From a virus, in IMG/VR virus record IMGVR_UViG_3300033141_002015, positions 1 through 46,273 of that record: DNA of 46,273 bases, one strand, 5' to 3'. Below are positions 9,626 through 46,273 of this stretch, piece after piece. Under the pieces are notes generated by a model that saw nothing but the letters and a program-made list of their open reading frames with translations, made no database searches and had not been told where the DNA came from. The position numbers and the translations under genes were made by a program. Within the stretch, counting starts at the first letter, position 1, and every line of letters starts with the position of its first letter.

Positions 9626-9760
9626 TCAATTTCGGGCCAGGTAATTCTCTATCGCCTCCCTAATGATCTCGGCTATCGATACCCTCCGCTTGAAGGCCAA
9701 CTTGCGTAGCTTATTGTAGAGAGGCTCGGTGAGGTCGAATGTGAATATGTGCTTACTCAC
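9626..9760 (-). CDS. Ribbon-helix-helix DNA-binding protein (44 aa)
   Basis: 44 residues, CopG/Arc-like: a short beta strand (HIFTFDLT), helix one (PLYNKLRKLAFKR), turn (VSIAE) and helix two (IIREAIENYLARN). These proteins dimerise and bind operators through the strand, and act as repressors or antitoxins. The GTG start overlaps the upstream repeat-gene stop (GTGA), so the two are translationally coupled. The RHH gene at 23684-23854 also follows a repeat-protein gene, suggesting a repeated gene pair. Its stop abuts the attP arm repeats. Confidence 0.75.
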   Translation of the reverse strand: MSKHIFTFDLTEPLYNKLRKLAFKRRVSIAEIIREAIENYLARN

Positions 9761-10608
9761 CTACTAACACCCCCAATCTCCTTTATGCGGTGCGCCACCC
9801 AACGGCGCGTGAGCGCGTTTGGCTCTTCAGCCGGCGTGAGCAGATGATCGAGTCGATCTACCGGAATGCGTTTCGCCACACATATACGTACCATCACATC
9901 CGGCTCTTCATCGGGTGTGAGTAGGTGGTCAAGGTTTTCCGCGTGGATACGTGCCGCTATACACCGGCGCACGTATTCGCTCGGTTCCTCATCGGGTGTA
10001 GGTAGACGGCTGATGCGTTCTGTTGGGATGCGTTCCACTATACGGCAGCGTATGCCCATACCTGGCTCTTCGTCCAGGGTGGGTATGTGATCGATCCTCT
10101 CTGGCGGGATACGGAACGCCACCCACCAACGCACTCCCGCATCCGGCTCCTCGCCGGGTGTGAGTAGGTGGTCTATGCGTTCTGGTGAAATGCGGAATGC
10201 CACCCAACGGCGCATCTTCACACTTGGCTCCTCGTCGGATTTAAGAAGGTGATCAATCATCCCCGCGGGGATATGTCTCGTTACCCACCAGCGCACGTCC
10301 GCATCCGGTTCCTCGTCCGGTGTGGGTATTGCCGTGATCTCACGAACCGTTAGCAAGCGATTGGTCTTCGATTTTTCGCCCTCGATGCGTACAACCTCAC
10401 CTGCGGGCTCGACCTCCAGTAAGTGGCCATTCCTTGGTGTGGGTGGCATATAATCACTGGGGCTTTCCGCGTAATGCAGCCCACCACCGCAGACGGGCTC
10501 GGGGTTCCAATCGGGGCACTCGGTGACCTCGCCTATGCGGTAGACAACATCCTGGCGTGCATTCAGATGCGGCTCCGTCCAGTTGGCCGATACGACTTTG
10601 AGGTTCAT
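9757..10608 (-). CDS. DUF7666-like domain plus seven 27-residue solenoid repeats
   Basis: 283 residues. The N-terminal domain (1-95: KVVSANWTEP...YRIGEV...CGGGLHYAE...HLLEVEPAGEVVRIEGEKSK) resembles DUF7666, which in other phages caps long degenerate repeats. Then come seven units of 27 residues with consensus LLTPDEEPDAxVRWWVAxRIPxERIDH. The regular VR..VA..IP pattern is like HEAT or leucine-rich-repeat-variant units and predicts a helical superhelix. It is one of six paralogues in this genome and carries the most repeats. The start at 10608 is set by GAGGGGGTAAGAAA, the same context as the copy at 24559. Function unknown; probably protein binding. Confidence 0.75.
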   Translation of the reverse strand: MNLKVVSANWTEPHLNARQDVVYRIGEVTECPDWNPEPVCGGGLHYAESPSDYMPPTPRNGHLLEVEPAGEVVRIEGEKSKTNRLLTVREITAIPTPDEEPDADVRWWVTRHIPAGMIDHLLKSDEEPSVKMRRWVAFRISPERIDHLLTPGEEPDAGVRWWVAFRIPPERIDHIPTLDEEPGMGIRCRIVERIPTERISRLPTPDEEPSEYVRRCIAARIHAENLDHLLTPDEEPDVMVRICVAKRIPVDRLDHLLTPAEEPNALTRRWVAHRIKEIGGVSR

Positions 10609-10658
10609 TTTCTTACCCCCTCGTGTGTTGGCAGGTGATCGAGCTTTTCCGGATTCAT
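10605..10658 (-). CDS. 17-codon mini-ORF, remnant of the 27-residue repeat
   Basis: AAAAGGAGGTATGCC precedes an ATG for MNPEKLDHLPTHEGVRK, whose TGA overlaps the repeat-protein start (ATGA). PEKLDHLPTxEx.VRK matches the end of one repeat and the start of the next (PERIDHLPTPDEEPDVR). It therefore looks like a decayed end of a former repeat gene that now acts as a coupled leader peptide. The strong ribosome site suggests it is translated. Confidence 0.5.
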   Translation of the reverse strand: MNPEKLDHLPTHEGVRK

Positions 10659-10672
10659 GGCATACCTCCTTT

Positions 10673-11005
10673 TCAGTCATTATCAATCCTTAATGATTCA
10701 AGCATGGCGTGGAAATTCTTCTCAATTTCCGCCCCCTTCCTCCAACGACGCTGCCATGCTGCCAGGCTGAATTTTTTCGTGCGCTCTGCCAGGGGGCGTT
10801 CTAGCCATTTATCGCGCAACGCTTCACACTCCTCAAGCGTTGGCTTGTGTGTGTGGAATAGATTGCCCTTTGAGTCACAGTACCAGTAGTCATAGATCAT
10901 ACATAACGGCCCCTGAACATAGGAGTATTGCTCGTCATCGAAATCGGTTAATTCAGGACGATCTACTCCGTTCCTGAATAATGGCTTATATGTATGTTTA
11001 TCCAT
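10673..11005 (-). CDS. Hypothetical phage protein
   Basis: 110 residues, first gene of the leftward operon 11005-9626, under the promoter at 11036-11064. ATG 11005 is chosen because GAGGGG lies 9 bases upstream; a GTG nine bases earlier overlaps that site. The protein is soluble, with an aromatic N-terminal half (YVQGPLCMIYDYWYCDSKGNLF) and a basic helical C-terminal half. No family recognised. Confidence 0.65.
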   Translation of the reverse strand: MDKHTYKPLFRNGVDRPELTDFDDEQYSYVQGPLCMIYDYWYCDSKGNLFHTHKPTLEECEALRDKWLERPLAERTKKFSLAAWQRRWRKGAEIEKNFHAMLESLRIDND

Positions 11006-11098: not shown

Positions 11099-12103
11099 TC
11101 AAGAGGTAAGGCGGGATAATTCTTGCTCTACCAGCTCAAGTGCCGACCGTTCCTTTGTTTCGGTCGAGTGCATGTAGCGTTGTGTCGTGGTGAGTTTGGT
11201 GTGTCCCAGTATCTGGCGGGTGGTCTCCAGGTCTATCTGATTACGGCCTAGTATATCCGTTATCGTGTGCCGGAGATCGTGGAACCTCCAGTGCTTGACC
11301 CCTTTCATTTTCTGCCGCTCATAGATAAACCTCTGTATCAGTTGTCTGGCTGTTTGTTTGAAAGCGACCCCGCCGTTTTCCAGAAACCTTCTGCGTAGAA
11401 TGGATGCGGCAAAATCAGACAGGTAAAATCTTTTCGGTACACCCGCCTTGCGGTCGGGTATATCTACCGTGCCCTGTATGAAGTTCGTATTATCCTGTGT
11501 GATCTTGCATAGTTCCCCGATGCGCAATCCGCCCATTGCCAGGCATAGCAGGATGGCATCTCGGTGGAGCGGCGTTGCCTGTTTCAGAATCACCTTCAAT
11601 TCATCGTGGCTCACAATGCGATTGATTTTCGGTCTAGCCTTGGGGATCTTGATTTCCGGCAGTCTATTCAGGAAATTCCAGCGCACGGCTTTATTGAGTA
11701 TCGCTTTCAAATAGATTGATTCCTGACGGGGCAAGGCCGCAAGATCTATCTCTAGGGCGGTGAGCTGCGAGATACGCATATTACCGAAATGTTCTAATAG
11801 CCGTTTGGTGATAGATTGAAGGCGGGTTAAGTTCGGAAGCCCCGTATACATTCTCTGCTTACAGTAGTCGCTGATATAGAGTTTAACCAGTTTATCGAAT
11901 CTTATGTCTTGCGGGATATTCTCTCCGAATCCTTCAAGGCGTTTCGAGTGGCGGTATTCTCGGAGCAATTCCTTGGCCTCGGTGATCGTATCGCCCGCCT
12001 TACGCCACGTACGACTACCCGCTATGGTAGGCCGGATATAATAGGATATAGTGCCGTCCTTGTGTGTGTAGGAGTAGATGCCCTTGTATTTGGTCTTTTT
12101 CAT
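11099..12103 (-). CDS. int: Tyrosine recombinase / phage integrase
   Basis: 334 residues. The N-terminal part (1-55) is an arm-binding-type domain, followed by a core-binding SAM-like domain (about 65-150) and the catalytic domain. The catalytic residues are R194 (GGLRIGEL), H275 and R278 (HDLRH), H301 (LGHTKLTTTQRY) and nucleophile Y310. Length and layout are typical of temperate phage integrases. Its start overlaps the repressor stop (ATGA), so repressor and integrase form one operon in lysogens. The likely attP lies 1.5 kb downstream at 9415-9625. Confidence 0.95.
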   Translation of the reverse strand: MKKTKYKGIYSYTHKDGTISYYIRPTIAGSRTWRKAGDTITEAKELLREYRHSKRLEGFGENIPQDIRFDKLVKLYISDYCKQRMYTGLPNLTRLQSITKRLLEHFGNMRISQLTALEIDLAALPRQESIYLKAILNKAVRWNFLNRLPEIKIPKARPKINRIVSHDELKVILKQATPLHRDAILLCLAMGGLRIGELCKITQDNTNFIQGTVDIPDRKAGVPKRFYLSDFAASILRRRFLENGGVAFKQTARQLIQRFIYERQKMKGVKHWRFHDLRHTITDILGRNQIDLETTRQILGHTKLTTTQRYMHSTETKERSALELVEQELSRLTS

Positions 12104-12336
12104 TTCATATTGAACAGATAATCTTCATCAACACCTAATACCTGCATTAATTTTATCGCAAGAAATAGATTGAAAATCCTCCCTTTTTCAATTAGAGATA
12201 TATTCGATTGCGAGCAGCCAATACTACGGGCGAGCTGTTTTTGCGTTAGTCCCTTTCTTTTGCGTGCCAAACGAATTCGTTCGCCACGCTCCGAATCCCA
12301 AGTATACTTCTGTCTTTTTTTTATAATACCGATCAC
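12100..12336 (-). CDS. XRE-family repressor (CI-like)
   Basis: 78 residues, a single HTH_3 domain: GERIRLARKRKGLTQKQLARSIGCSQSNISLIEKGR. There is no peptidase or oligomerisation domain, so it resembles short repressors that are not self-cleaving. It is divergent from the Cro-like gene at 12482 and immediately upstream of the integrase. GTG 12336 is taken as the start. GGGGGTGATC overlaps it as an almost perfect anti-16S match, so the exact start is uncertain. It is the best candidate to bind the palindrome at 12436-12453 and 4699-4716. Confidence 0.8.
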   Translation of the reverse strand: MIGIIKKRQKYTWDSERGERIRLARKRKGLTQKQLARSIGCSQSNISLIEKGRIFNLFLAIKLMQVLGVDEDYLFNMK

Positions 12337-12356
12337 CCCCTCGCTAATCTAATGAT

Positions 12357-12385
12357 ATTATATTACTTTAATCATATGCTTGCAA
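12357..12385 (-). promoter_or_regulatory. Leftward repressor/integrase promoter
   Basis: On the minus strand, TTGCAA (12385-12380), a 17-bp spacer and a perfect -10 TATAAT (12362-12357) place the transcript start near 12350, only about 13 bases before the repressor GTG. A TGATAT half-site of the operator (12353-12358) overlaps the -10, which would allow autoregulation. Confidence 0.65.
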
Positions 12386-12426
12386 TACTTTTATTTGCAA
12401 TTCTTTAAATGAGCAAAATTTTTTAC

Positions 12427-12456
12427 TTGACAAAAATATCATTATAGTGATATAGT
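12427..12456 (+). promoter_or_regulatory. Rightward early promoter
   Basis: TTGACA (12427-12432), an 18-bp spacer and TATAGT (12451-12456) precede the Cro-like gene by about 25 bases. The spacer is filled by the 18-bp palindrome, so repressor binding would block polymerase directly. It is the counterpart of the lambda PR position and should drive the early genes from 12482 rightwards. Confidence 0.75.
12436..12453. promoter_or_regulatory. 18-bp operator, copy 1
   Basis: ATATCATTATAGTGATAT has dyad symmetry at 8 of 9 position pairs and lies between -35 and -10 of the early promoter. The near-identical site at 4699-4716 differs at two positions, and each copy fills in the other's asymmetry to give ATATCACTATAGTGATAT. 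Likely bound by the XRE repressor and/or the Cro-like protein. Confidence 0.75.
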
Positions 12457-12481
12457 CGCTTCTAACTTTAGGGGGTATCAC

Positions 12482-12682
12482 ATGGGGCACAAAAACAACA
12501 GAATCAGGGAGTTACGAGAGGCAAGGCACCTTACGGTTGATGAGCTTGCCGAAAGAGCGCGGCTAACAGTCAAGGAAATCAATAGGCTAGAAAGCGCAAA
12601 GCCGCAAAACATCATGATTAACGAGGCCGTAAAGATCGCCCATGCCTTGGATGTTGGAATCAGGGAGCTGATGTATGAGTGA
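12482..12682 (+). CDS. Cro-like XRE HTH protein
   Basis: 66 residues, one HTH_3 domain: IRELREARHLTVDELAERARLTVKEINRLE, then a helical end. It is the first gene of the rightward early transcript, after GGGGGT. Opposite orientation to the repressor and small size fit a Cro role (repressing the repressor promoter). It overlaps the next gene by 8 bases. Confidence 0.8.
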   Translation: MGHKNNRIRELREARHLTVDELAERARLTVKEINRLESAKPQNIMINEAVKIAHALDVGIRELMYE

Positions 12683-12890
12683 GCGCCATTATACGCCGCG
12701 CCAGGCCGCTGAATTATTCGGATGCGCCGAGAGGACATGGAGAGCACTTGCGGACGAATACGGTGCGGTCAAGCTCGGTCGAAAATGGCTAATTCCTGAT
12801 AGTTTGATACGACGAATACTCGATGATCACCGGAAGCAACCCACACCTCGCGCCCGACGCAGGGCCTTAATGAAAAAACTAGAAAGGTAG
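12675..12890 (+). CDS. Excisionase/MerR-type winged helix (HTH_17) protein
   Basis: 71 residues. YTPRQAAELFGCAERTWRALADEYGAVKLGRKWLIPDSLI is the standard excisionase-family helix-turn-helix and wing (x.P.QAAE.FG...RT...L...G....GRKW.IP...L). A very basic C-terminal tail (RARRRALMKK) follows. It may be the phage excisionase (directionality factor), or a generic early regulator. It overlaps the cro-like gene, so the two are co-translated. There is no homology to lambda Xis that can be claimed. Confidence 0.65.
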   Translation: MSERHYTPRQAAELFGCAERTWRALADEYGAVKLGRKWLIPDSLIRRILDDHRKQPTPRARRRALMKKLER

Positions 12891-12894
12891 TGGT

Positions 12895-13093
12895 GGATTC
12901 CATTGTATAGACATAACACGCTGGCCCTACCGATTTAACCTTCGGGCATCCGGCGGGTCGGCGGATGAGAGAGCCTGGCGTGTGCGAGCATAGACGCGCT
13001 ATGCATTGTTACCGGCTGGGTGCAACCATTAGAAACCGTTGGCCGAGGTTAAAATCGGCTGTGAGCTAGCCAGCCACACGCCAGAAGGAATCC
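12895..13093 (+). ncRNA. Candidate structured (pseudoknotted) RNA
   Basis: The gap after 12890 has no convincing gene but many exact complementarities. Closing stem: GGATTCC/GGAATCC (12895-12901/13087-13093). Then GCTGGC/GCCAGC (12920-12925/13069-13074), and CCGATTTAACC with GGTTAAAATCGG (12930-12940/13047-13058, one bulged A). Local hairpins: CATCCG/CGGATG (12947-12952/12962-12967) and GCATAG/CTATGC (12988-12993/12999-13004). CTGGCGTGTG/CACACGCCAG (12975-12984/13075-13084) crosses the long stem, so it is a pseudoknot or an alternative state. This nested architecture suggests a functional early-transcript RNA. It matches no family I know. Confidence 0.5.
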
Positions 13094-13147
13094 TGGCACC
13101 CCTGCTACCCACCTAACTCCCTTGAACCCACTCAAGCGGGGGTGCCA
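13094..13147 (+). promoter_or_regulatory. Stem-loop in the leader of the second repeat gene
   Basis: TGGCACCCC (13094-13102) pairs perfectly with GGGGTGCCA (13139-13147). Inside the loop, CTTGA/TCAAG (13121-13125/13132-13136) forms a second stem. The element starts one base after the structured RNA and ends 11 bases before the GGAGGAG of the repeat gene. No U-run follows, so it is not a simple terminator; a processing site or translational element is more likely. Confidence 0.45.
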
Positions 13148-13166
13148 AATGAATCACGGAGGAGTA

Positions 13167-13841
13167 ATGAAACTCAAGGTCGTCACATCTGACTGGACGG
13201 GCGTGCATGAAGACGCACGCCAGGACGTAGTCTACCGTATAGGCGAGATCACGGAGGCCCCCGACTGGGATCCCGAACCCGAATGCGGTGGCGGGCTATA
13301 CTATGCGGAGGGATTGTGGGACTACCTGCCTGAGACGCCGGAGGGCGGGCACCTGCTGGAGATCGAGCCCGTAGGTGAGGTCGTGCGCGTTGAGAACAAC
13401 CAATCGAAGACCAATCGTCTGCGTGTAATACGTGAGATCACGGCAGTACCCACACCCGACGAAGAGCCGGATGCGGGCATGCGCCGGTTGGTGGCGGGAT
13501 GTATCCCCGCGAAGCGGCTCGACCACCTACTCACACCCGACGAGGAGCCGGATGCGACCGTGCGCTGGCACGTAGCGTCACGCATCCCCGCGGATAGGAT
13601 CGATCGCTTGCCTACATCGGATGAGGAGCCGGATGAATACGTGCATTGGTGTTTGGCGGAACGCATTCCGGTAGATCGACTCGATCATCTACTCACCCCT
13701 AACGAGGAGCCGGATGCGGACATACGCCTGTCGGTGGCGGCACGCATCCCCACGGATCGGCTTGACCACATACCCACACCCGCCGAGGAACCGGATGCGG
13801 ATGTACGCCGAATGGTGGAGAAACGGTTGAAGGAAAAATGA
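13167..13841 (+). CDS. DUF7666-like domain plus five 27-residue repeats
   Basis: 224 residues. The N-terminal domain of about 95 residues (MKLKVVTSDWTGVHEDARQ...GGGLYYAEG...HLLEIEPVGEVVRVENNQ) is nearly the same as in the paralogues. Four full repeats and one shortened repeat follow, ending in RRMVEKRLKEK. The acidic DEEPD turn begins every unit. The start is set by CGGAGGAGTA. An in-frame ATG 18 bases earlier overlaps the ribosome site. It overlaps the next gene (ATGA). First gene after the structured RNA on the early transcript. Target unknown. Confidence 0.75.
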   Translation: MKLKVVTSDWTGVHEDARQDVVYRIGEITEAPDWDPEPECGGGLYYAEGLWDYLPETPEGGHLLEIEPVGEVVRVENNQSKTNRLRVIREITAVPTPDEEPDAGMRRLVAGCIPAKRLDHLLTPDEEPDATVRWHVASRIPADRIDRLPTSDEEPDEYVHWCLAERIPVDRLDHLLTPNEEPDADIRLSVAARIPTDRLDHIPTPAEEPDADVRRMVEKRLKEK

Positions 13842-14194
13842 ACAAGCTCCAAAAAGAGGCAATCGCAACACTGTTCTGTGAGTGGTTCAGGATGCGTACC
13901 ATCGTTCAAGATGTATGCGACGAATTAGATTACGTGAATTGCAGACCCATAGCCCTTTGCGAACATCGAAAATTCCACCCATATACACAAGACGAGGGTA
14001 CCGACGGTATATTCGATGATGATAGATGCCCGATGATTACAACCGTCATGTATGGTGAATATAGCACATACGAGGAGCGGCTTGAATATTACTCGTGGGC
14101 GAAGGATAACTGTAATTATTGGCATCATTATTTCGAGCAGTTTCTTAACGATCTAATTGAAGACCTGGAGGGTGAGCTATGCGTGAAGGAGTAA
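13838..14194 (+). CDS. Hypothetical acidic cysteine-containing protein
   Basis: 118 residues, ATG overlapping the repeat-gene stop. It is rich in Asp/Glu/Tyr/Trp with scattered cysteines (C14, C26, C35, C41 and others) but no clear zinc motif. The C-terminal half (EERLEYYSWAKDNCNYWHHYFEQFLNDLIEDLE) is helical. No family recognised. It lies between two repeat-protein genes. Confidence 0.65.
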   Translation: MNKLQKEAIATLFCEWFRMRTIVQDVCDELDYVNCRPIALCEHRKFHPYTQDEGTDGIFDDDRCPMITTVMYGEYSTYEERLEYYSWAKDNCNYWHHYFEQFLNDLIEDLEGELCVKE

Positions 14195-14265
14195 TTGTAG
14201 CGATAGGTTTGGTAATCCTCTGCATCTTTGTAGTCATGTGGGGGCTGAAAGGCGGCAAAACATGA
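14179..14265 (+). CDS. 28-residue single-pass membrane protein
   Basis: ATG after GGAGGGTGAGCT. The product is almost entirely one membrane helix (VIVAIGLVILCIFVVMWGL) with a GGKT tail. It overlaps the previous gene by 16 bases and the next start by 4 (ATGA). One of at least four tiny membrane proteins between 14179 and 15319. Confidence 0.6.
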   Translation: MREGVIVAIGLVILCIFVVMWGLKGGKT

Positions 14266-14789
14266 GAAACAAGAGTGCAGATTCGGGACGATTCGATCAT
14301 CTACTGACGCCGGCGGAGGAGCCGAACGTTTATATGCGTCGTCAGTATGCCGCACTTATCGATCCGGATAAAATCGAGCACCTACTCAAACCATCCGAGG
14401 AACCGGATGCGAAAGTGCGTTGGTGGGTGGCATTCCGTATCCCGCCAGAGAGGTTAGATCATCTGCTGACGCCAGAGGAGGAGCCGGATGCGAAAGTGCG
14501 TTGGTGGGTGGCGTCACGCATACCCGCGGAACGGATCGATCACCTGCCCACAGCAGACGAGGAGCCGGATGTATACGTGCGCTGGCATGTGGTGCGCCGC
14601 ATACCCGCGGAACGGATCGATCACCTGCCCACAGCAGACGAGGAGCCGGATGAATACGTGCGCTGGCTCGTTGCGGCACGCATTCCCGTTGAACGCATCG
14701 ATCATCTGCCCACATCAGACGAGGAGCCGGAGGAGGAGATACGCGATTTAGTGGCGATACTTATTCGCGGGATGGAGCAAGGGAGATGA
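14262..14789 (+). CDS. Repeat-only paralogue: six 27-residue solenoid repeats, no cap domain
   Basis: 175 residues. A short leader (MRNKSADSGRFDH) is followed directly by six repeat units, without the DUF7666-like domain found in the other five copies. Units 3 to 5 are close to the consensus (LPTADEEPDxYVRWxVxxRIPAERIDH), and two neighbouring units are nearly identical in DNA, a sign of recent 81-bp unit duplication. The ATG overlaps the small membrane-protein stop. It may rely on another paralogue for its missing domain or be a minimal binding solenoid. Confidence 0.75.
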   Translation: MRNKSADSGRFDHLLTPAEEPNVYMRRQYAALIDPDKIEHLLKPSEEPDAKVRWWVAFRIPPERLDHLLTPEEEPDAKVRWWVASRIPAERIDHLPTADEEPDVYVRWHVVRRIPAERIDHLPTADEEPDEYVRWLVAARIPVERIDHLPTSDEEPEEEIRDLVAILIRGMEQGR

Positions 14790-14790
14790 C

Positions 14791-14886
14791 ATGAACCGCG
14801 AGCGTCTATTTATAGCGTTTATCAGGATTTCGATTCTAGCGTTCTGCATCTATTATTGGTACTGGATATTCAGGCTGGTTTTCTAG
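14791..14886 (+). CDS. 31-residue membrane protein
   Basis: ATG follows GGGAGATGAC. The peptide has a basic start (MNRERL) and one long hydrophobic, Tyr/Trp-rich segment (FIAFIRISILAFCIYYWYW) ending IFRLVF. The next gene's ribosome site (GGAGGAGG) begins at its stop. No family recognised. Confidence 0.55.
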   Translation: MNRERLFIAFIRISILAFCIYYWYWIFRLVF

Positions 14887-14898
14887 GAGGAGGTGAAA

Positions 14899-15258
14899 AT
14901 GACCTGGCAATTAGTGTATTGGATTACGAGATTTGATGCTATTAATGTGTTCGCTATTGTATCTGTTGTGCTTGGTGGTATAAGTGGGCTTTTTTGTTTT
15001 ATGCACTGTTCTATTGAAGAGGAAATGCATAACTTGGGCAGGTGGTTGCGTATCCCAATAACTATATTGCTCATTGGGATACTTCTCTTTCTGTTCATTC
15101 CTTCCACCAAAGAAGCATGCGCTATCTATCTCATACCGAAAATCATCAATAACGAGCAGGTACAGCATGTGCCCGAGAAAGCTCTGCGCCTGCTCAACGC
15201 GAAATTCGATGAGTGGATAGATGAGCAGATGGGGGACGACAATGCGAAACAAGATTGA
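14899..15258 (+). CDS. Two-helix membrane protein
   Basis: 119 residues, ATG 14899 after a strong TAGGAGGAGGTGAAA. It has an aromatic N-terminus (MTWQLVYWITRFDAI) and a first membrane helix (FAIVSVVLGGISGLFCFM). After a charged cytoplasmic loop, a second helix (IPITILLIGILLFLFIP) precedes a soluble tail. The opening and two-helix spacing are common in a family of small phage membrane proteins without known function. It overlaps the following 25-codon gene. Confidence 0.7.
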   Translation: MTWQLVYWITRFDAINVFAIVSVVLGGISGLFCFMHCSIEEEMHNLGRWLRIPITILLIGILLFLFIPSTKEACAIYLIPKIINNEQVQHVPEKALRLLNAKFDEWIDEQMGDDNAKQD

Positions 15259-15319
15259 GTGGATATTCCTGATACTTGCTTCGCTCTACCTAATAGGGCG
15301 TTATGTCTTTTCCATCTGA
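15242..15319 (+). CDS. 25-residue membrane peptide
   Basis: ATG within the end of the preceding gene opens MRNKIEWIF followed by LILASLYLIGRYVFSI, one membrane helix. Only GGGGGAC stands upstream as a ribosome site. Together with 14179, 14791 and 14899 it forms a cluster of very small hydrophobic genes. Confidence 0.45.
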   Translation: MRNKIEWIFLILASLYLIGRYVFSI

Positions 15320-15332
15320 AGCGAGGTGCTAT

Positions 15333-16718
15333 ATGTTGCTTAAAAAGGCGGAAAACGAGACGGCTTTTCTATCTGCTGCGATTTACGGTTTCGCCGGCAG
15401 TGGTAAGAGTTTCACCGGCGCATGCATCGCAATCGGTTTACACCATCACATCAAATCAAAGGGGCCGGTGGTTTATATCGACACCGAGGCGGGATCGGAT
15501 TTCCTCTTGCCGCACTACCGGCACAACGGCATAGAGGTCATGCGTTCAAATAGCAGGGCGTTCCGTGACGTTCTGCCGACGATGCAAGAGGCGAAAAATG
15601 CCGGAGCGGAAATCATGGTCATCGACTCTTGCACGCATCTGTGGAAAGAACTGTGCAATGCATACGAGAAGAAATACAAGCGCACGAGCGGATTACAATT
15701 TCAGGATTGGAAGAACGTCAAGGGCGAATGGGGCGAGTTTATGACCGCCGTACTAAACGAGCCGTTACACATAATCCTGCTGGGGCGCGCGGGTTATGCA
15801 TATGACTATATCGATATTGACGGCAAGAAAACACTCATCAAAACCAATACCAAGATGCGGGCCGAGGGCGAGACGGAACATGAGCCATCTATAACGCTCG
15901 AAATGGAACAGATAACCCTCTCCGACGATGAGATAAAGGATCTGGCGCGCAAGCAGGCTAAGGGGTTTGGTACGAAAGTTACGGGGCAATTTTCCAGCTA
16001 TGTAATGTATGTGCTGAAAGACAGGGCGAATCTACTCACCGGTTCAGTGTTCAAATACCCGCCCCAGCCAGGTAAATTGATCGAGCCGAATAACCCTCCC
16101 TTCACAGACATACTTCCATTCATACAGACCATCAACGTCGGTGGCAAGCATGTGGGCGTGGATAATACCAGAACGAGCGAGGACATGTTCGTCGGTGCAG
16201 ATAATAGCTATACCGAACGGAGAAAGACGAAAACCATCATATTAGAGGAACTGAAAGCGGAATTAGATACGCATTTCGGGTCATCACAGAAGGATAGGGC
16301 AGCCAGGATCGCACTCTTAAAAAAGCATTTCGGCACAGCTTCTAGCACTAAGATTGAGGGGCTGGATATTGAACGGCTAAGGCTCGGCTACGATAAGATT
16401 TGGGTCGAGCTTAACCCGCAACGAGAGGAGGTAAAAAAGGTAAGAACCCCCGTACATGTTTCGGGGGAAAAAGACAGCGGGGGGGAGGGTACCGCCCGTT
16501 CGCGGGCCCATCACCCAGACCCTTCCCCCCCAATTAAAGAAGCAGAGGCAATCTACAATAATCACAAACATACAAAGAAGGACGTAGAGCGCGTCGCGGA
16601 TATGCTCGGATACAATCTGAATGAAGACCCGGCGAACATACGGGGCAATATGGACAATGAAGAATGGAAAGTCGCCATAGCCGGCATTATTGGGTACTAC
16701 AAGTTGAGGGAGTTATAG
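15333..16718 (+). CDS. RecA/AAA-type ATPase (phage recombination or replication)
   Basis: 461 residues. Walker A is GFAGSGKS at 19-26 and a Walker B-like IMVIDS has D98. The N-terminal 230 residues are an AAA_24/Sak4-like P-loop domain, as in phage ATP-binding proteins that act with annealases or load helicases. A conserved C-terminal segment (about 284-365, KAELDTHFGSSQKDRAARIALLKKHF...) is also found, duplicated, in the next gene. A Gly/Pro-rich linker and a final helical domain follow. ATG 15333 is chosen because GCGAGGTG precedes it. The linker DNA (16447-16531) holds stable inverted repeats. Confidence 0.75.
   Translation: MLLKKAENETAFLSAAIYGFAGSGKSFTGACIAIGLHHHIKSKGPVVYIDTEAGSDFLLPHYRHNGIEVMRSNSRAFRDVLPTMQEAKNAGAEIMVIDSCTHLWKELCNAYEKKYKRTSGLQFQDWKNVKGEWGEFMTAVLNEPLHIILLGRAGYAYDYIDIDGKKTLIKTNTKMRAEGETEHEPSITLEMEQITLSDDEIKDLARKQAKGFGTKVTGQFSSYVMYVLKDRANLLTGSVFKYPPQPGKLIEPNNPPFTDILPFIQTINVGGKHVGVDNTRTSEDMFVGADNSYTERRKTKTIILEELKAELDTHFGSSQKDRAARIALLKKHFGTASSTKIEGLDIERLRLGYDKIWVELNPQREEVKKVRTPVHVSGEKDSGGEGTARSRAHHPDPSPPIKEAEAIYNNHKHTKKDVERVADMLGYNLNEDPANIRGNMDNEEWKVAIAGIIGYYKLREL
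16182..16428 (+). repeat. 247-bp duplicated segment, donor copy in the ATPase gene
   Basis: This stretch of the ATPase gene recurs at 17469-17715 with the same length, no gaps and roughly two dozen base differences by eye (about 90% identity). Most changes are silent, so both copies appear to be kept under protein-level selection. Confidence 0.9.
16447..16531 (+). repeat. Inverted-repeat cluster inside the ATPase gene
   Basis: CCCCCG/CGGGGG (16447-16452/16462-16467) is followed by a long arm, GGGGGGGAGGGT (16479-16490) pairing with ACCCTTCCCCCCC (16519-16531, one bulge). The latter encloses GCCCG-TTCG-CGGGC (16494-16507). The encoded peptide is a low-complexity Gly/Ser/Pro linker, so the DNA or RNA structure may be what matters, or it is an inserted palindromic element that kept frame. 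Confidence 0.6.
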
Positions 16719-16721
16719 AAA

Positions 16722-17720
16722 ATGAACCTCAAAGTAGTATCAGCCAATTGGACGGGAGTGCATGAAGATGCACGCCAGGATGTTGTGTACAAGGTGGGTG
16801 AGATCACAGAGGCACCCGACTGGGATCCCGAGCCCAAATGCGGTGGCGGGCTGCACTACGCAGCGAACTCGTTGGACTACCTGCCCGAGACGCCGGAGGG
16901 CGGCCACCTGTTGGAGGTCGAGCCCGTAGGTGAGGTCGTGCGTGTCGAGGGCGAAAAATCGAAGACCAACCGCTTGCGTGTAATACGTGAGATCACGGCA
17001 GTACCTACACCTGAAGAGGAGTCGAGTGCGGCAGTGCGCTATTGGGTGGCGAAACGCATCCCCGCGGAGCGGATCGATCACATACCCACACCGGACGAGG
17101 AGCCAAATGAAGATGTGCGTTGGTGGATGGCGCAACACATCCCTGCGGAACGGATCGATCACTTACCTACGCCTGATGAGGAACCGGATGCGAAGGTGCG
17201 CTATCGGGTGGCGTCACGCATTCCCGCAAAGCATATCAATCATCTACTGACTCCATGGGAGGAGCCGGATGAAGGTGTGCGCCGTTGTGTGGCAAGGCGC
17301 ATTCCCGTTGAGCGGCTCGACCATCTATCCACACCTGCCGAAGAGCCCGCTGTGGGGGTGCGTTGGTGGGTAGCAGAACGCATATCTACAGAGCGCATCG
17401 ACCATCTACTCACCCCTGAAGAGGAACCGGATGCGGATATACGCCGAATGGTGGAGAAGCGGTTGAAGGATATGTTCGTCGGTGTAGATGGTAGCTATAC
17501 CGAACGGAGAAAGACGAAAACCATCATATTGGAGGGATTGAAAGCGGAACTAGATACGCATTTCGGGTCGTCACAGAAGGATAGGGCGGCCAGGATCGCA
17601 CTCTTAAAAAAGCATTTCGGTACGGCTTCTAGTACAAAGATAGAAGGGCTGGACATTGATCAACTAAGGCTCGGCTACGATAAGATTTGGGTCGAGCTTA
17701 ACCCCCTGAGAGAGGTATAG
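16722..17720 (+). CDS. Chimera: DUF7666-like domain, six repeats and captured ATPase C-terminal segment
   Basis: 332 residues in three parts. The DUF7666-like domain is 1 to about 95. Six 27-residue repeats (96 to about 249) end RRMVEKRLKD. Residues 250-332 (MFVGVDGSYTERRKTKTIILEGLKAELD...) are an 83-residue copy of the ATPase C-terminal segment from the gene just upstream. The junction replaces the usual KEK end of the family. The start follows GAGGGAGTTATAGAAA, 3 bases after the ATPase stop; the next paralogue has the same TATAGAAAATGAACC context, a likely recombination site. The shared segment may let it interact with ATPase partners. Confidence 0.8.
   Translation: MNLKVVSANWTGVHEDARQDVVYKVGEITEAPDWDPEPKCGGGLHYAANSLDYLPETPEGGHLLEVEPVGEVVRVEGEKSKTNRLRVIREITAVPTPEEESSAAVRYWVAKRIPAERIDHIPTPDEEPNEDVRWWMAQHIPAERIDHLPTPDEEPDAKVRYRVASRIPAKHINHLLTPWEEPDEGVRRCVARRIPVERLDHLSTPAEEPAVGVRWWVAERISTERIDHLLTPEEEPDADIRRMVEKRLKDMFVGVDGSYTERRKTKTIILEGLKAELDTHFGSSQKDRAARIALLKKHFGTASSTKIEGLDIDQLRLGYDKIWVELNPLREV
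17469..17715 (+). repeat. 247-bp duplicated segment, recipient copy
   Basis: Second copy of 16182-16428, fused in frame to the end of a repeat-protein gene. The duplication together with the paralogous repeat genes makes 16182-18317 a tandem array of homologous blocks prone to recombination. Confidence 0.9.
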
Positions 17721-17723
17721 AAA

Positions 17724-18317
17724 ATGAACCTGAAAGTCGTATCGGCCAACTGGACGGAGCCGCATCTGGATGCACGCCAGGATGTAGTCTACCGGGTAGG
17801 CGAGGTCGCCGAGTGTCCCGACTGGGATCCCGAACCCGAATGCGGCGGCGGGCTGCATTACGCAGCGACTTCGTTGGACTACCTGCCCGAGACGCCGGAG
17901 GGTGGTCACCTGCTGGAGGTCGAGCCCGTAGGTGAGGTCGTGCGCGTTGAGAACAACCAATCGAAGACCAATCGCCTACGCGTAATACGTGAGATCACGG
18001 CAGTACCCACACCCGACGAGGAGTCGAGTGCGGCAGTGCGCTGGTACGTGGCGGGATGTATCCCCGCGAAGAGGCTCGACCACCTACTCACACCCGATGA
18101 GGAGCCGGACGCGAGTGTGCGCTGGTACGTGGCGGCACGCATCCCCATAGAGAGGATCGATCACTTGCACACACCCGACGAGGAGCCGGATGCTACCGTG
18201 CGTTGGAAGGTGGCGGAACGTATACCCGCAAAGCGGATTGATCATTTGCTGACTCCAGAGGAGGAGCCGGATGAAGATGTGCGCCAAGTGATAGAAGAAC
18301 GCTTGAAGGAAAAATAA
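17724..18317 (+). CDS. DUF7666-like domain plus four 27-residue repeats
   Basis: 197 residues: cap domain (1 to about 95) with CGGGLHYAATSLDYLPETPEGGHLLEVEPVGEVVRV, then three full repeats and one shortened repeat ending IEERLKEK. The DNA of the cap domain is nearly identical over long runs to those at 13167 and 16722. It starts 3 bases after the chimera stop, preceded by GAGAGAGGTATAGAAA. Shortest capped member apart from 23951-24559. Confidence 0.75.
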   Translation: MNLKVVSANWTEPHLDARQDVVYRVGEVAECPDWDPEPECGGGLHYAATSLDYLPETPEGGHLLEVEPVGEVVRVENNQSKTNRLRVIREITAVPTPDEESSAAVRWYVAGCIPAKRLDHLLTPDEEPDASVRWYVAARIPIERIDHLHTPDEEPDATVRWKVAERIPAKRIDHLLTPEEEPDEDVRQVIEERLKEK

Positions 18318-18329
18318 ACGGGGCTGATT

Positions 18330-18617
18330 ATGCAATTCGTAAACGACGGATGGTTAAGGAAAGCGCAAGAGTACGATAAGTTTTGTCACGCTGGGGGAAG
18401 TTGTCTCATGGTATGTCTATTGTGGGCGGCAATAAAAAGAGTAGAGATATGGAATCTCTCTAGCCAATCTCGGCTCTTTATCGTAGGTGTTCTGATCCTA
18501 TCTGGAGGCGTCGCCCTTGAAATCGTACAGGCGTATCGTGGTATCGGCTTCTCCTGGCGTGATGTAGTAGCGGATTTGGCCGGTGTACTTGTAGCGTATA
18601 GAGCGATAGGAGGTTAG
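18330..18617 (+). CDS. YfiM/DUF2279-like small membrane protein
   Basis: 95 residues. DKFCHAGGSCLMVCLLW, then a second hydrophobic helix (LFIVGVLILSGGVALEIVQAYRGIG) and FSWRDVVADLAGVLVAY give the 'DKxxHxxGS ... E..q....G.SwrDvvaDlaG' pattern of YfiM-like (and distantly VanZ-like) membrane proteins. Common in phages near lysis or accessory genes; function unknown. Starts after the repeat-gene stop, before a Cys-containing protein. Confidence 0.6.
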   Translation: MQFVNDGWLRKAQEYDKFCHAGGSCLMVCLLWAAIKRVEIWNLSSQSRLFIVGVLILSGGVALEIVQAYRGIGFSWRDVVADLAGVLVAYRAIGG

Positions 18618-18619
18618 TT

Positions 18620-18877
18620 ATGTGTGACCATGTATGGCGAGAAGTACACGAGGCGACACTTATCTTGGGCGGGCACCACCGCGTTGGTTATATGTGCATA
18701 AAGTGCGGCGAGTGGATTTCGCAGAACAATGTAAAACCCGGCTCCGTCTCTGGCACCATGTCAGATGAGGTTGTTTTATACGGTCCGCACGGTGGCTGCG
18801 GCCAATGCTCCGATGGCTCTACATACAAGCGGCAGATATACAACAGGAAAACCGGTAAACTTACCATAGAGCGATAG
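18620..18877 (+). CDS. Hypothetical protein with CxxC motifs
   Basis: 85 residues, after GATAGGAGGTTAGTT. It has C2 and H3 at the start, YMCIKCGEW (CxxC) and GGCGQC (CxxC), suggesting a small zinc ribbon. No named family. Sits between two accessory genes of the early transcript. Confidence 0.65.
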   Translation: MCDHVWREVHEATLILGGHHRVGYMCIKCGEWISQNNVKPGSVSGTMSDEVVLYGPHGGCGQCSDGSTYKRQIYNRKTGKLTIER

Positions 18878-18888
18878 GGGGCGATACA

Positions 18889-19959
18889 ATGATAGACAAA
18901 CTAACATCAGAACAAGAGGCATACTTGCCGGTGTTCAGAGAGCGGTGGTTTAATATTGGTAGTTCTATAGAGCCGATGGACAGGGCGACTGCGACAGATG
19001 CCGTTAATGGATTCTATGCAACTATTGGCAAGCCGAGCCCAAATATTATATGGGCCAGTTCGCCGTTCACGGCACATATCATAGCAAATATGTTGGGTGA
19101 GGGTGAGGACTCGCTTGGGGACTCGCTTTGGGTCTCGCTTTGGGACTCGCTTTGGACCTCGCTTGGGGACTCGCTTCGGGATTCGCTTTGGGCCTCGCTT
19201 GGTGCCTCGCTTCGGGACTCGCTTTGGGTCCCTCTTGGTGACTCGTTTCGGGCCTCGCTTCGGGCCTCGCTTGGTGCCTCGCTTCGGGACTCGCTTGGGG
19301 CCTCAAAGTTGAAATATATACTTTGCTGGTTTTGGGGCCAGGCAGATGTACATTGGCTCGCCTTCTATCTGTTTTGCCACCATATAGGGGTTAAATACAA
19401 AGACGATGCATACAACAAACTACAGCTACACCGGAAATACTGCCAATCAGCAGGATGTCTATATCCATATGAAAATATAGCGATAGTCTGCGATAGGCCG
19501 TGTGAGATAAATTGGAATCATAATAAAACCATGCTACACAACGACGGCGGGATGGCCGTTAAGTTCAGGGATGGATGGGGGTTCTGGTCATTAAACGGTG
19601 TACTTGTACCGCAATGGCTCGCAGAAACAGAAGCTAATCAAATTAACCCGCGCAAATTTGCAGAAATTGAAAACGCAGAGATACGCCGTGAATTCGTGCG
19701 TAAAATCGGGGTTGAAAGGATTGCACAGCATTGCGGGGCAGAATTATTAGACACTATGGGAGACTATCAGCTGATTAGAATTGATTTAGGAGGTGAGACG
19801 GGAGCTTGGCCGTATTTAAAGATGCAAAACCCATCTATCGGTGTATGGCACCTAGAGTGTGTTGGTAGAGAGTGCCAAACCGTGCAGCAGGCAATTAATT
19901 TTAGGGCATCGAGATTAAAAACACTTCGGGGAGATTGGCAACCACAGCAGTTAACGTAG
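18889..19959 (+). CDS. DUF6745-like protein with xSLx tetrapeptide repeats
   Basis: 356 residues. Residues 74-137 are sixteen tandem tetrapeptides (DSLG, DSLW, VSLW, DSLR, ASLG and so on). The rest carries features I associate with DUF6745: MLHNDGGMAVKFRDGWGFWSLNGVLVPQWL, then ENAEIRREFVRKIG, then GRECQTVQQAINF. Known relatives also contain short Trp/Ser/Asp repeat tracts. Such tracts can form stacked beta-helix-like coils and change length by slippage. The start follows GGGGGCGATACA. Function unknown; cytosolic, no signal or membrane segment in the conserved part. Confidence 0.7.
   Translation: MIDKLTSEQEAYLPVFRERWFNIGSSIEPMDRATATDAVNGFYATIGKPSPNIIWASSPFTAHIIANMLGEGEDSLGDSLWVSLWDSLWTSLGDSLRDSLWASLGASLRDSLWVPLGDSFRASLRASLGASLRDSLGASKLKYILCWFWGQADVHWLAFYLFCHHIGVKYKDDAYNKLQLHRKYCQSAGCLYPYENIAIVCDRPCEINWNHNKTMLHNDGGMAVKFRDGWGFWSLNGVLVPQWLAETEANQINPRKFAEIENAEIRREFVRKIGVERIAQHCGAELLDTMGDYQLIRIDLGGETGAWPYLKMQNPSIGVWHLECVGRECQTVQQAINFRASRLKTLRGDWQPQQLT
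19108..19299 (+). repeat. 12-bp coding tandem repeat, 16 units
   Basis: Sixteen units of the form GACTCGCTTTGG or close variants, without interruption, within the DUF6745-like gene. The period is a multiple of three, so unit gain or loss keeps the frame and alters protein length only. Confidence 0.95.
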
Positions 19960-19968
19960 GAGGAGGAC

Positions 19969-20127
19969 ATGTTGAAGCAATTCCAGCATGGGGACGTACT
20001 TGGTATCAGGGTAGATGAATTGCCCGCTGGATGTAAGCACATACAACCACGCAACGGGCGATACATATTAGCCGACGGAGAAGTTACTGGACACGCACAC
20101 GCCATTGCCGTTGCTGATGGCATCTAA
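19969..20127 (+). CDS. Conserved phage protein, N-terminal part of a split gene
   Basis: 52 residues after TAGGAGGAGGAC. MLKQFQHGDVLGIRVDELPAG and LADGEVTGHAHAI are hallmarks of a small conserved phage protein (usually about 100 residues, GEVTGHAH... then THEEH...PPG.Y..GR). The second half continues downstream in the -1 frame (20136-20258). Here the frame stops at TAA 20125-20127. Either the gene is broken or it makes two separate pieces. Confidence 0.65.
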   Translation: MLKQFQHGDVLGIRVDELPAGCKHIQPRNGRYILADGEVTGHAHAIAVADGI

Positions 20128-20135
20128 GAACGGAG

Positions 20136-20258
20136 GTGGAGGCACCCCTTACACACGAGGAACACCATCGGCAGATTATTACCCCCGGCATATACGAAAT
20201 CGGCCGGGTTGTTGAGGTCGATCCCTTTGAGGGTGAAATCAGAAAAGTGATGGATTGA
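20136..20258 (+). pseudogene. Detached C-terminal part of the conserved phage protein
   Basis: The frame open from 20118 encodes APLTHEEHH, then TPGIYEIGRVVEVDPFEGE and a short IRKVMD end. This is the normal C-terminal half of the protein at 19969. The expected linker of about 15 residues (a 'YE.DG.LYL' strand) is missing. The cause is probably a small deletion that also shifted frame. GTG 20136 could restart translation, but GGAGG overlaps it. Confidence 0.55.
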
Positions 20259-20317
20259 TGCCCGACACCACATGGAAATCAGTCGAGTGTAGAATATGCC
20301 GAACGGGAGAAATGTGA
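20258..20317 (+). CDS. Putative 19-codon coupling peptide
   Basis: ATG overlapping the stop of the preceding fragment (TGATG) opens MPDTTWKSVECRICRTGEM, with a CxxC. Its TGA overlaps the GTG of the RuvC-like gene. It may be a leader peptide that couples translation. Little else supports it. Confidence 0.3.
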   Translation: MPDTTWKSVECRICRTGEM

Positions 20318-20787
20318 GATTGAGCGTGGTAACCATTGGTGTTGATATAGGGGGAACGACGGGAGTGGCTATAGTGCGTGGTGGTAAGCTATTGCATTCC
20401 ACCGTTCGTAAGTTGAAGGGCGCACGCCCTGAACGGCTAACACATCTGCGGGAATTCATAATAGAGAATATTAAACGCACGCGCAAAAGAGCGCAATATA
20501 AAGACGTTGATATAGATATTATCCAATACGAGAAACCGTTCAATATGAATATCAAGACACATGCCACCCTCTGCATGTACGCCGGCGTGCTCGAACAGAT
20601 AGCGGACGAATACGGTATCAAGGTACGCAGCATCGATAACAGAACGATTAAGAAGGCGATGATAGGCAGGGGGAACGCGACAAAGGCCGACATGATGAAA
20701 CACGCAGAGCGGTTAGCTGGTAAGAGGTGCGTCTGGCAAGATGAGGCGGATGCGATAGTGATAGCTTTTTACGGGAAAGGAGCGTGA
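20314..20787 (+). CDS. RuvC-like Holliday-junction resolvase
   Basis: 157 residues from GTG 20314, which has GGGAGA upstream; an in-frame ATG at 20296 has no ribosome site. An RNase H-fold nuclease is shown by D11 (IGVDIGGTTGVAI), E73 (IIQYEKP) and D143/D146 (WQDEADAIVIA), the RuvC acidic set. KTHATLCMYAGVLEQIA and the lysine-rich helix before the last motif fit phage RuvC homologues. It resolves branched DNA during replication and recombination before packaging. Adjacent genes are replication related. Confidence 0.85.
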   Translation: MRLSVVTIGVDIGGTTGVAIVRGGKLLHSTVRKLKGARPERLTHLREFIIENIKRTRKRAQYKDVDIDIIQYEKPFNMNIKTHATLCMYAGVLEQIADEYGIKVRSIDNRTIKKAMIGRGNATKADMMKHAERLAGKRCVWQDEADAIVIAFYGKGA

Positions 20788-20794
20788 TTGCGGC

Positions 20795-20968
20795 ATGAAA
20801 AGCGAAAAAAGTTGCCCATTATATGTGGCTTCCCCAGAAGACATTGATGTCAGATGCGTTGGCGAGGCGTGCCAGCTCTGGCACCTATGCAGTGGGGAAT
20901 CGCTGAGTGAAATTGCGGATGCAATCGATCAGTTGGTGGAGCAGATCATTTATCTGAGATCTGGGTGA
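20795..20968 (+). CDS. Small cysteine-rich phage protein
   Basis: 57 residues: CPLY near the N-terminus, then RCVGEACQLWHLC, a four-cysteine arrangement (C, C....C...W..C) found in short phage proteins that may bind zinc or an Fe-S cluster. The C-terminal half is an acidic helix. A weak ribosome site (GATTGCGGC). Confidence 0.6.
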   Translation: MKSEKSCPLYVASPEDIDVRCVGEACQLWHLCSGESLSEIADAIDQLVEQIIYLRSG

Positions 20969-20976
20969 GATGAAGA

Positions 20977-21558
20977 ATGAAGTACGGAACGCTATATACG
21001 ACATTCAGAATACTGAGAGAGGTTGGGGCATGCAAACCCAGGTATCGTTACTTGGCTCGGAAATTAGGCGGTGTGAAAAAGTACGGCGAAGATAAACCTA
21101 TCCCGATCTTGAAGATACTCGAAATTAATGGCTTCGATGATGCGTTATGGGCGCTTTGTATAGCCATGCCCGTCGATAAGGCAGATAAGCTACTCCGCCT
21201 TTTCAATTGTTGGTGTGTACGGAATACACCACTACCAGATGGCGGGACGGTATGGGATTTACTAGAGGATGAACGTTCCCGAAAGGCCGTCGAGGTGGCC
21301 GAGAGATATGCACACGGCAAGGCGAGCGAAGAAGACCTAGCCGCCGCTGGCGTCGCCGCCTGGGAAGCCTCCTGGCAATCCGACAGTTGCGCCGTCGGGA
21401 GTCTCGCCGAAGAAGCAGCCTGGACCACAACTTGGAATCACCCCAATGTCGCCGCCTCTAGTTTTGCCGTCATAGCCAACGGGGATGCCACCTCCTGGGA
21501 GTCCGCCGCCATTGAAGCACAAGCAAAGCAATTACGAAAGATGCTGAAGGGTTCATAA
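20977..21558 (+). CDS. Phage protein with Ala/Trp-rich degenerate repeat tail
   Basis: 193 residues. The N-terminal half (YLARKLGG...ILKILEINGFDDALWAL...LLRLFNCWCVRNTPLPDGGTVWDLLEDERSRKAVEVAERYAHG) is a conserved phage domain. The C-terminal half is rich in Ala, Trp, Glu and Ser (AAAGVAAWEASW, EEAAWTTTW), where relatives have perfect AAWxAA repeats, here degenerate. It ends in a basic helix. Likely soluble; function unknown. Confidence 0.65.
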   Translation: MKYGTLYTTFRILREVGACKPRYRYLARKLGGVKKYGEDKPIPILKILEINGFDDALWALCIAMPVDKADKLLRLFNCWCVRNTPLPDGGTVWDLLEDERSRKAVEVAERYAHGKASEEDLAAAGVAAWEASWQSDSCAVGSLAEEAAWTTTWNHPNVAASSFAVIANGDATSWESAAIEAQAKQLRKMLKGS

Positions 21559-21576
21559 GGGGGCGGGTGAGTAAAC

Positions 21577-22023
21577 ATGAGCAACCCTAACAGAAACCCG
21601 AAATTGAATTGGAATATCGTGCATAAAGCGCGAAACATGTACAAAAACGACAAAACACTTACTATTAAGGATGTGGCAAGAAAATTCGGTATCTCACTAT
21701 CCGCCATGTACAAGGTGATACACAACCAGACATGGCGAGACCCCAATTACGAGGAGCCGTCTGCTATCGCCCCAGGGCGGAGCCGCAGGGCGGCCATCGA
21801 ACCGAAGCGCAAGCCAGCGAATGAATATCCATTCAACTGTCATATATGCGGCATGGGATATGAAACCACAAAGGAGGCGAGTGATTGTTGTAAGCGGCAG
21901 CGTGAGGTGGATAATCGCGCCGGCGATACCGGTGAGCGTGAGGGCAAGTGGGGCGACACAAAGGGCAACCCGATGTATAAATACATAATCTGGTATGATC
22001 TGATGGGAAGGCGGCGTAGGTGA
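21577..22023 (+). CDS. HTH plus zinc-finger DNA-binding protein
   Basis: 148 residues. Residues about 8-48 form a homeodomain-like helix-turn-helix (VHKARNMYKNDKTLTIKDVARKFGISLSAMYKVI) of the kind found in HNH and replication accessory proteins. The middle has FNCHICGMGYETTKEASDCC, a C2HC-like finger. The C-terminus is basic. It directly precedes the replication initiator, so it may help origin recognition or regulation. Confidence 0.65.
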   Translation: MSNPNRNPKLNWNIVHKARNMYKNDKTLTIKDVARKFGISLSAMYKVIHNQTWRDPNYEEPSAIAPGRSRRAAIEPKRKPANEYPFNCHICGMGYETTKEASDCCKRQREVDNRAGDTGEREGKWGDTKGNPMYKYIIWYDLMGRRRR

Positions 22024-22809
22024 ATGAGCCGGTATTCGCGCATTCGAAATAAAATATGGAACTCTATCACGTTCCGCCGGCTTGACGATAGGGCCAAGCT
22101 GCTATGGTTCTACCTTCTAACCTGTACGCACTCTAATATGCTCGGCCTCTACGTATTAAAACCAGGATACGCACTAGAAGATTTGGGCTGGAGAATAAAG
22201 GAATTCGATGAGGCATTCGTGAAGCTCCAGAACGTACCCACGTCCGACGGATCCTACGGACTGATCTCATACGACCCAGAAACCAACCTCGTCTTGATAA
22301 AAAACTACTTCGATGAGGGAAACAAACTGGAAAATCCGAACCAGGTGAAGGCAGCAATCAAACAACTCGACACACTGCCAAAATCGAAACTGTTTCAAGA
22401 TTTGCAACTCATATTAAAACAACAAGATATAGATTTTTACGCGCCAATATTGAAACGGTTAGGCAAACGGTTAGCGAAACCAGTAACCGTAACCGTATCC
22501 GGAACCGTAACTGATATAACATCGAATACTGGTAGTCAAGCATTAAAGGGCGGAGCGTCCGATTTTTTCAAAAAAATATTCAGGAGAGACGGGAGAAGGG
22601 AGGCAGAGCAGATATGCACGGAATTGGGTTTCCCAGGGGCCGAGGTAGAGAATATAGCTCGGCTCATTCGCAAGCATGGCATGGCAGCGGCCAATCATGC
22701 TACTGCGGCTTTAAAAGACAAGCGTTTGGATATGCAATTGGATAGGTGCGAGAAGCTAGAGAATGAAGTGGCGTATTTCGTGTGTTGTTTACGGGATTAC
22801 AGGCGATAG
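22024..22809 (+). CDS. Phage replication initiator-like protein
   Basis: 261 residues. It opens SRYSRIRNKIWNSITFRRLDDRAKLLWFYLLTCTHSNMLGLYVL, the typical start of phage replication proteins with a winged-helix domain (lambda O/DnaD-like functional class). A variable Thr/Val-rich linker (about 155-175) and a C-terminal helical domain follow. It would bind the origin and recruit host helicase machinery. The ATG directly follows the previous stop; ribosome site GGCGTAGG is modest. No phage helicase or polymerase is encoded, so host replisome use is inferred. Confidence 0.8.
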   Translation: MSRYSRIRNKIWNSITFRRLDDRAKLLWFYLLTCTHSNMLGLYVLKPGYALEDLGWRIKEFDEAFVKLQNVPTSDGSYGLISYDPETNLVLIKNYFDEGNKLENPNQVKAAIKQLDTLPKSKLFQDLQLILKQQDIDFYAPILKRLGKRLAKPVTVTVSGTVTDITSNTGSQALKGGASDFFKKIFRRDGRREAEQICTELGFPGAEVENIARLIRKHGMAAANHATAALKDKRLDMQLDRCEKLENEVAYFVCCLRDYRR

Positions 22810-22819
22810 GAGGTATGAG

Positions 22820-35943: not shown

Positions 35944-35969
35944 TCTGTTGATGAGGAGGCGGGGAGGAT

Positions 35970-46246: not shown

Positions 46247-46273
46247 TGGGAATAATCGGAAGTGAATTTGGCG
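46160..46273. repeat. Terminal direct repeat, right copy
   Basis: Identical to bases 1-114. See the left copy; it shows that the contig closes to a circle and that the gene at 45965 joins the gene at 87. Confidence 0.95.

Follow-up and report, generated by a model that had tools for sequence, protein, structure and literature searches.

Domain mosaicism is established in phage proteins: otherwise unrelated proteins carry a common fragment of high identity, and their shuffling is ongoing (Smug et al. 2023, PMC10684548). In the available sections of that paper, contemporary mosaicism is defined by an identity of at least 50% and a minimum fragment of 50 aa. Sak4-type recombinases are credited, in the available part of another report, with recombination between diverged sequences and with the generation of phage mosaics (PMC5499656).

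The window analysed here is the whole 46,273-nt stretch of the viral record IMGVR_UViG_3300033141_002015 (IMG/VR). In it, the chimeric gene R4 (16722-17720, + strand) encodes a DUF7666 head, six 27-aa LRV repeats and a helical domain of the type found in the neighbouring Sak4-like ATPase. The fragment common to the ATPase and R4 is 82 aa long and 93% identical, while the remaining parts of the two proteins belong to different families, so the pair falls within contemporary mosaicism as those sections define it. It differs from the mosaics presented there in that donor and recipient lie side by side in the same genome, which allows the joint and the likely path to be read. The combination of DUF7666-LRV with a Sak4-like C-terminal domain does not occur in the available sections of PMC10684548, and the R4 architecture was not found elsewhere in the searches made. 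We consider it likely that a copied segment of ATPase domain, leader and repeat gene was joined through the sequence AGGA to an upstream repeat gene, giving R4, that the tail of the ATPase was gained later, and that the R4 product is a solenoid with a four-helix domain.

Two copies of one ATPase domain

A repeat search of the window gives 16180-16428 and 17467-17715 as a two-copy family of 249 nt, 90% identical and ungapped. The identity drops to background directly before 16180 and past about 16428. In codon register, copy A (16182-16427, + strand) and copy B (17469-17714, + strand) differ at 24 of 246 nt without any indel or stop, and the block has the same frame in both ORFs. The differences consist of 18 transitions and 6 transversions; by path count, 17 are synonymous and 7 are non-synonymous. 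The estimates are about 0.04 for dN, 0.26-0.40 for dS depending on the method, and about 0.1 for dN/dS. The preliminary description had reported a 247-bp block that recurs with equal length and mostly silent changes and is fused in frame to the last solenoid unit. Both observations are confirmed, and copy B joins the end of the last 27-aa repeat.

Such a pair might also be produced in assembly, with copy B arising from the ATPase end by misjoining or strain mixing, and the longest exact stretches common to the copies (up to 41 nt) are enough to confuse short k-mers. However, the copies differ at 24 sites, and only 4 bp are common at the joint between repeat and block, so no k-mer can cause that joint. 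Also, core-block-X-block-R5 is the sole order in which a single molecule can contain both copies. An exact 114-bp direct terminal repeat (1-114 and 46160-46273) closes the record, which is therefore probably a complete circular assembly. Judged from the sequence, misassembly appears unlikely, and an artefactual copy of the ATPase end in particular is highly improbable.

The gene at 15303-16718 (+ strand) codes for a Sak4-like / AAA_24 ATPase whose core is of RecA/Rad51 type, and copy A is the C-terminal domain of this ATPase, predicted to form four helices. The gene matches PF13479 (E 2e-13; 51 bits against a cut-off of 27), phrog_1366 (5e-41) and the Sak4-like phrog_124 (1e-8), contains the Walker-type motif GFAGSGKS, and has a modelled core that aligns to Rad51 paralogues in a structure search (VIA, Z 9.6). 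Pfam, PHROG, motif and fold thus all give a RecA-type core with Walker A. Like the single-strand annealing ATPases HK620 Sak4 (PMC5928155) and staphylococcal Sak4 (PMC5499656), as presented in the available parts of those papers, it is a RecA-core phage ATPase among recombination genes. ATP-dependent single-strand annealing is a property of the class and is putative for this protein. HK620 Sak4 has about 25.6 kDa (PMC5928155), whereas the window ATPase adds the C-terminal helical domain and a 97-aa tail. In the AlphaFold model, the mean pLDDT of the whole ATPase is only 54, and the block is its best-predicted part, with four helices at pLDDT 81-89. Structure searches with the ATPase and chimera models gave nothing firm on the four-helix domain, as larger domains filled the lists.

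A search with the block alignment found 35 block-bearing viral loci, and in every one a Walker-A ATPase has the block as its C-terminal part. These relatives have about 370 residues and end within about 40 residues of the block, and none of the 35 loci has the block fused to any other protein. In Cronobacter phage phiES15, such an ATPase adjoins a gam-like gene. A single-sequence search of viral contigs with the whole ATPase gave no confirmed relative. Because the block belongs to Walker-A ATPases at all 35 loci and the sister repeat genes end without it, we take the ATPase as the source and the repeat gene as the recipient, and this comparison of sequences makes the direction of capture clear. 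The earlier proposal that a repeat-protein gene took a piece of the neighbouring ATPase therefore stands. The wording that this piece is the end of the ATPase has to be modified: it is ATPase-derived, but it is a C-terminal domain beyond which the ATPase continues for 97 aa.

Architecture of R4 and the fusion joint

The N-terminal DUF7666 domain of R4 (16722-17003, + strand) lies above the Pfam cut-off (PF24703, E 1e-9; 38.9 bits against 27). It is followed by an LRV-type repeat array (17004-17468, + strand), which ends in an MVEKRLK cap like that of the paralogue R2. A profile of the repeat family finds the Azotobacter LRV protein (1lrv) at E 3e-10 with hmmsearch, and 1lrv is also the top structural row for the R4 model (Z 9.3, 27% identity over 141 residues), its Z being tied with designed alpha-helical repeats. 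The R4 array is thus similar to Azotobacter LRV in repeat sequence and predicted fold, but it has a DUF7666 head and no N-terminal 4Fe-4S cluster domain was found. For this reason, we describe the array as LRV-like repeats and not as an LRV orthologue. When compared with DUF7666 phage proteins (PF24703) from 57 viral loci, R4 has the same head; LRV arrays were found only in the window and at two further loci (L005 and L150), and the ATPase-derived domain only in R4.

The ends of R2 and R5 read KRLKEK and ERLKEK before the stop, while R4 reads KRLK and continues with DMFVG, the fusion lying between KRLK and D. At the DNA level, TTGAAGGA is followed by AAAATGA in R2 and by TATGTTC in R4, and the ATPase has GCGAGGA followed by CATGTTC. 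The 4-bp AGGA is common to all of them (17467-17470 at the fusion joint, + strand; 13831-13834 in the R2-type end; 16180-16183 in the ATPase), and the sequence across the R4 joint is RRMVEKRLKDMFVG. This comparison indicates a sharp recombination joint at 17467-17470, at the end of the last repeat. The 4-bp microhomology is weak alone, with a chance occurrence estimated at a few per cent.

In the AlphaFold model of R4, the LRV array has pLDDT 93-96 and the four-helix domain (copy B) 81-92; residues 253-261 form a low-confidence linker and the head is poorly modelled. The product would most likely fold as an LRV solenoid, a flexible linker and an intact four-helix domain. If R4 is expressed, the likeliest effect would be to bring the solenoid to whatever the ATPase C-terminal domain binds in the recombination complex. 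Other phages with the same fusion, which the preliminary description had suggested looking for, were not found: tblastn of the block or the chimera gave no match in phage records and only a weak LRV-type match in plasmids. A BFVD fold search with the chimera returned nothing at E <=0.001, and NCBIfam and PADLOC gave no match.

Mobility of the repeat genes

The window contains six paralogous repeat genes, R1-R6, with a DUF7666 head and LRV repeats, and the block is found only in R4. R1 has 7 repeats (9757-10608, - strand), and R2 has 5 repeats and a C-cap like that at the end of R4 before its fusion (13167-13841, + strand). R3 is an LRV array without the head, a rearranged member of the family (14238-14789, + strand). 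R5 lies downstream of R4 (17724-18317, + strand), with its ribosome-binding region within the end of copy B, and R6 (23951-24559, - strand) is absent at this locus in a close relative. The family relatives at L005 and L150 have plain ends. Leader TATAGAAA is common to R4 and R5, and GTAAGAAA is found in R1 and R6. Beside the LRV genes, the window has a second kind of repeat gene, coding for a DUF6745 protein with a 4-aa (12-nt) array of DSLW/ASLG type (18889-19959).

The N-domain nearest to that of R4 is at L005, and those of R4 and R5 are not mutually closest. The N-domain of R5 (17724-18023) is itself a mosaic, R1-like in its 5' part and R2/R4-like in its 3' part, with a breakpoint near nt 92 (permutation p <=3e-6; 120 triplets screened). 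The close relative, IMG/VR 3300033150_000765, matches the window at about 95-98% identity across most of the genome that the two share. Its integrase locus carries an R6-type gene in the place taken by R1 in the window (9757-11000; L005 584-1773), and its own R6 locus (L017 11250-11450) retains only a scar, namely a repeat-gene leader and the 12 nt that follow it, in which ATG has become ACG. The repeat genes recombine into mosaics and move from locus to locus, and this mobility accounts for how the fusion arose. The contig of this relative lacks window positions 11583-23167 and so gave no outgroup for the ATPase; no orthologue of the fusion locus was found. Two stretches among the late genes (35191-35953 and 37265-39684) have no blastn match in the approximately 96% identical relative, including the middle of a 968-aa ORF (37155-40061); they are possibly variable surface-type loci.

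Over the 57 viral loci, DUF7666 heads are joined to varied arrays (9-aa GAASATGxx, 8-aa GTATAGxx, 20-aa leucine-rich) or to none, and the head family appears modular by habit. At loci L055-L110, the heads occur with several unrelated short tandem arrays, often with a common C-terminal segment WYDGxRxRxxVGYVGEDGIEP. A scan of genome contigs with the repeat family gave one distant DUF7666-type match, in a Burkholderiales MAG, which was not useful.

A probable older end of the ATPase

The ATPase-specific C-terminal extension (16428-16718, + strand; 97 aa) consists of a low-confidence linker followed by helices and is absent from the chimera and all relatives found. No homologue of it was found in phages by tblastn or blastn; the part at 16533-16715 gave only chance-level matches and the tail DNA none. 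The linker part contains a GC-rich stem-loop with a 12-bp outer stem and an inner hairpin (16479-16531, + strand), which is only mildly exceptional (z-score -1.7). Rfam had no match in the window. The stem-loop has G7 and C7 runs inside the ATPase frame, and a sequencing indel there could shift the frame of the tail.

The preliminary description regarded TATAGAAAATGAACC, with which both the ATPase and the chimera end, as a likely crossover point. This is contradicted by the alignment: the block homology stops at 16427/17714, the ATPase runs through 16428-16718 before it reaches the shared TATAGAAAATGAACC, and TATAGAAAATGAACC belongs to the following repeat gene as its leader and start. A motif scan places a repeat-gene leader motif, GGAGGTAAAAAA, inside the ATPase ORF exactly at the end of block homology (16427-16438, + strand). 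At one mismatch or less, GGAGGTAARAAA has three occurrences in 46 kb, and the other two are the leaders directly before R1 and R6; by chance, the mean is 0.4 and three occurrences were reached in 1 of 100 shuffles. If GGAGGTAAGAAAATG, the usual leader, stood here, the ATPase frame would stop at the overlapping ATGA.

The motif at 16427-16438 is probably the scar of an older ATPase end and repeat-gene start. Since the relatives lack the tail and a repeat-gene leader motif stands at the block end, the tail is probably a later gain: the ATPase would formerly have ended at a leader directly before a repeat gene, with readthrough or insertion adding the tail, and the chimera, which ends in LREV and a stop, probably retains the older end. 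Alternatively, the tail may have been deleted from the second copy between GGAGGTA and GGAGTTA, which would yield an identical chimera end.

Route to the fusion

The most likely route is that recombination copied a segment that begins inside the ATPase (16180), spans its C-terminal helical domain and extends over the leader into the next repeat gene itself. At the 4-bp AGGA, this segment would have been joined to the upstream repeat gene within its last codons. The upstream gene would have lost its stop and, by chance of frame, acquired the ATPase domain, giving R4, while the same cassette would have provided the ribosome-binding region and start of R5. At that time, a repeat-gene leader shortly after the block probably marked the end of the ATPase, and the 97-aa tail probably came later. 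Given mobile repeat genes, it is no surprise that a duplication or cassette transfer should take in the ATPase end together with leader and repeat gene. The donor may be the ATPase/repeat-gene junction of the phage itself, by tandem duplication, or that of a sister phage, and both fit. Because Sak4-type recombinases are credited with recombining diverged sequences, the donor ATPase gene may have helped to build the chimera. R4 is clearly a fairly recent fusion, a phage protein built from swapped parts.

In favour of a single event, dS is 0.40 in the block (95% 0.21-0.69) and 0.51 in the N-domains of R4 and R5 (0.30-0.85), values compatible with the duplication or transfer of one segment. Against a single local event, R4 and R5 are not closest in their N-domains, which calls for either gene conversion afterwards or a foreign donor. 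The foreign donor is a sub-case of the route above, in which copy B, leader and R5 were imported from a sister phage diverged by about 10% and landed at the 3' end of R4. Repeat-gene cassettes swap between loci and phages, R5 is a mosaic that is not the sister of R4, and an overall low dN/dS is expected between two ATPases. However, a local origin is the simplest account of the TATAGAAA leader common to R4 and R5 (an orthologous donor junction would carry TATAGAAA too), and the search for a donor phage found none. We regard such an import as quite possible but short of probable; the chimera would then be very young, its silent differences having arisen between two ATPases under selection.

Fate of the chimera

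The preliminary description took the silent changes as a sign that both copies are used. The low dN/dS agrees with this, but a neutral chimera is rejected only if the copies diverged in place. Under in-place divergence with silent changes split evenly, a neutral chimera gives 8 or fewer replacements in 1.3% of simulations, while an omega of up to about 0.3 on the chimera fits easily. If copy B came from a diverged sister phage, the pattern reflects two working ATPases, and it is therefore uninformative on the use of the chimera. No closer ATPase that would separate in-place from foreign origin was found. It is plausible from the sequences that both copies are in use, and we infer that the chimera could share a partner with the ATPase.

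The event may have been kept for the leader and start of R5, with the ATPase domain on R4 as a neutral passenger. The block end does provide a purine-rich ribosome-binding region directly before R5, and repeat genes are often duplicated and lost. However, only the last 15 nt or so would be needed, yet 82 codons are open with no indel or stop across the 24 differences, and neutrality is unlikely if the copies diverged in place. We find this explanation doubtful.

Selection for an adaptor would instead require that the chimera is expressed and kept, its four-helix domain docking the LRV solenoid on the recombinase complex, either on a partner or on SSB-coated DNA. The fusion falls exactly at the domain border with both folds predicted intact, ATPase, R4 and R5 form a translationally close gene chain, and so few non-synonymous changes would be rare under in-place neutrality. 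On the other side, a foreign cassette voids the dN/dS argument, a Glu to Gly change specific to the chimera in the first helix (16248/17535) hints at some relaxation, and a second phage with the fusion was not found in the searches. Such selection is unlikely on the present evidence, and it is quite improbable that R4 works as an adaptor by which a rapidly recombining LRV solenoid is tethered to the recombination machinery of the phage itself.

Implications

Domain mosaicism of phages is usually inferred from distant genomes. Here, about 15 kb of one genome contain the donor, the joint, the recipient and several sister genes without the fusion. The steps that lead from tandem repeat genes to a new multidomain protein thus become readable and testable. 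Six mosaic, relocating solenoid genes in one phage look like a reservoir for such fusions. If the adaptor reading were true, the repeat-gene family would be physically linked to the recombinase that shuffles it.
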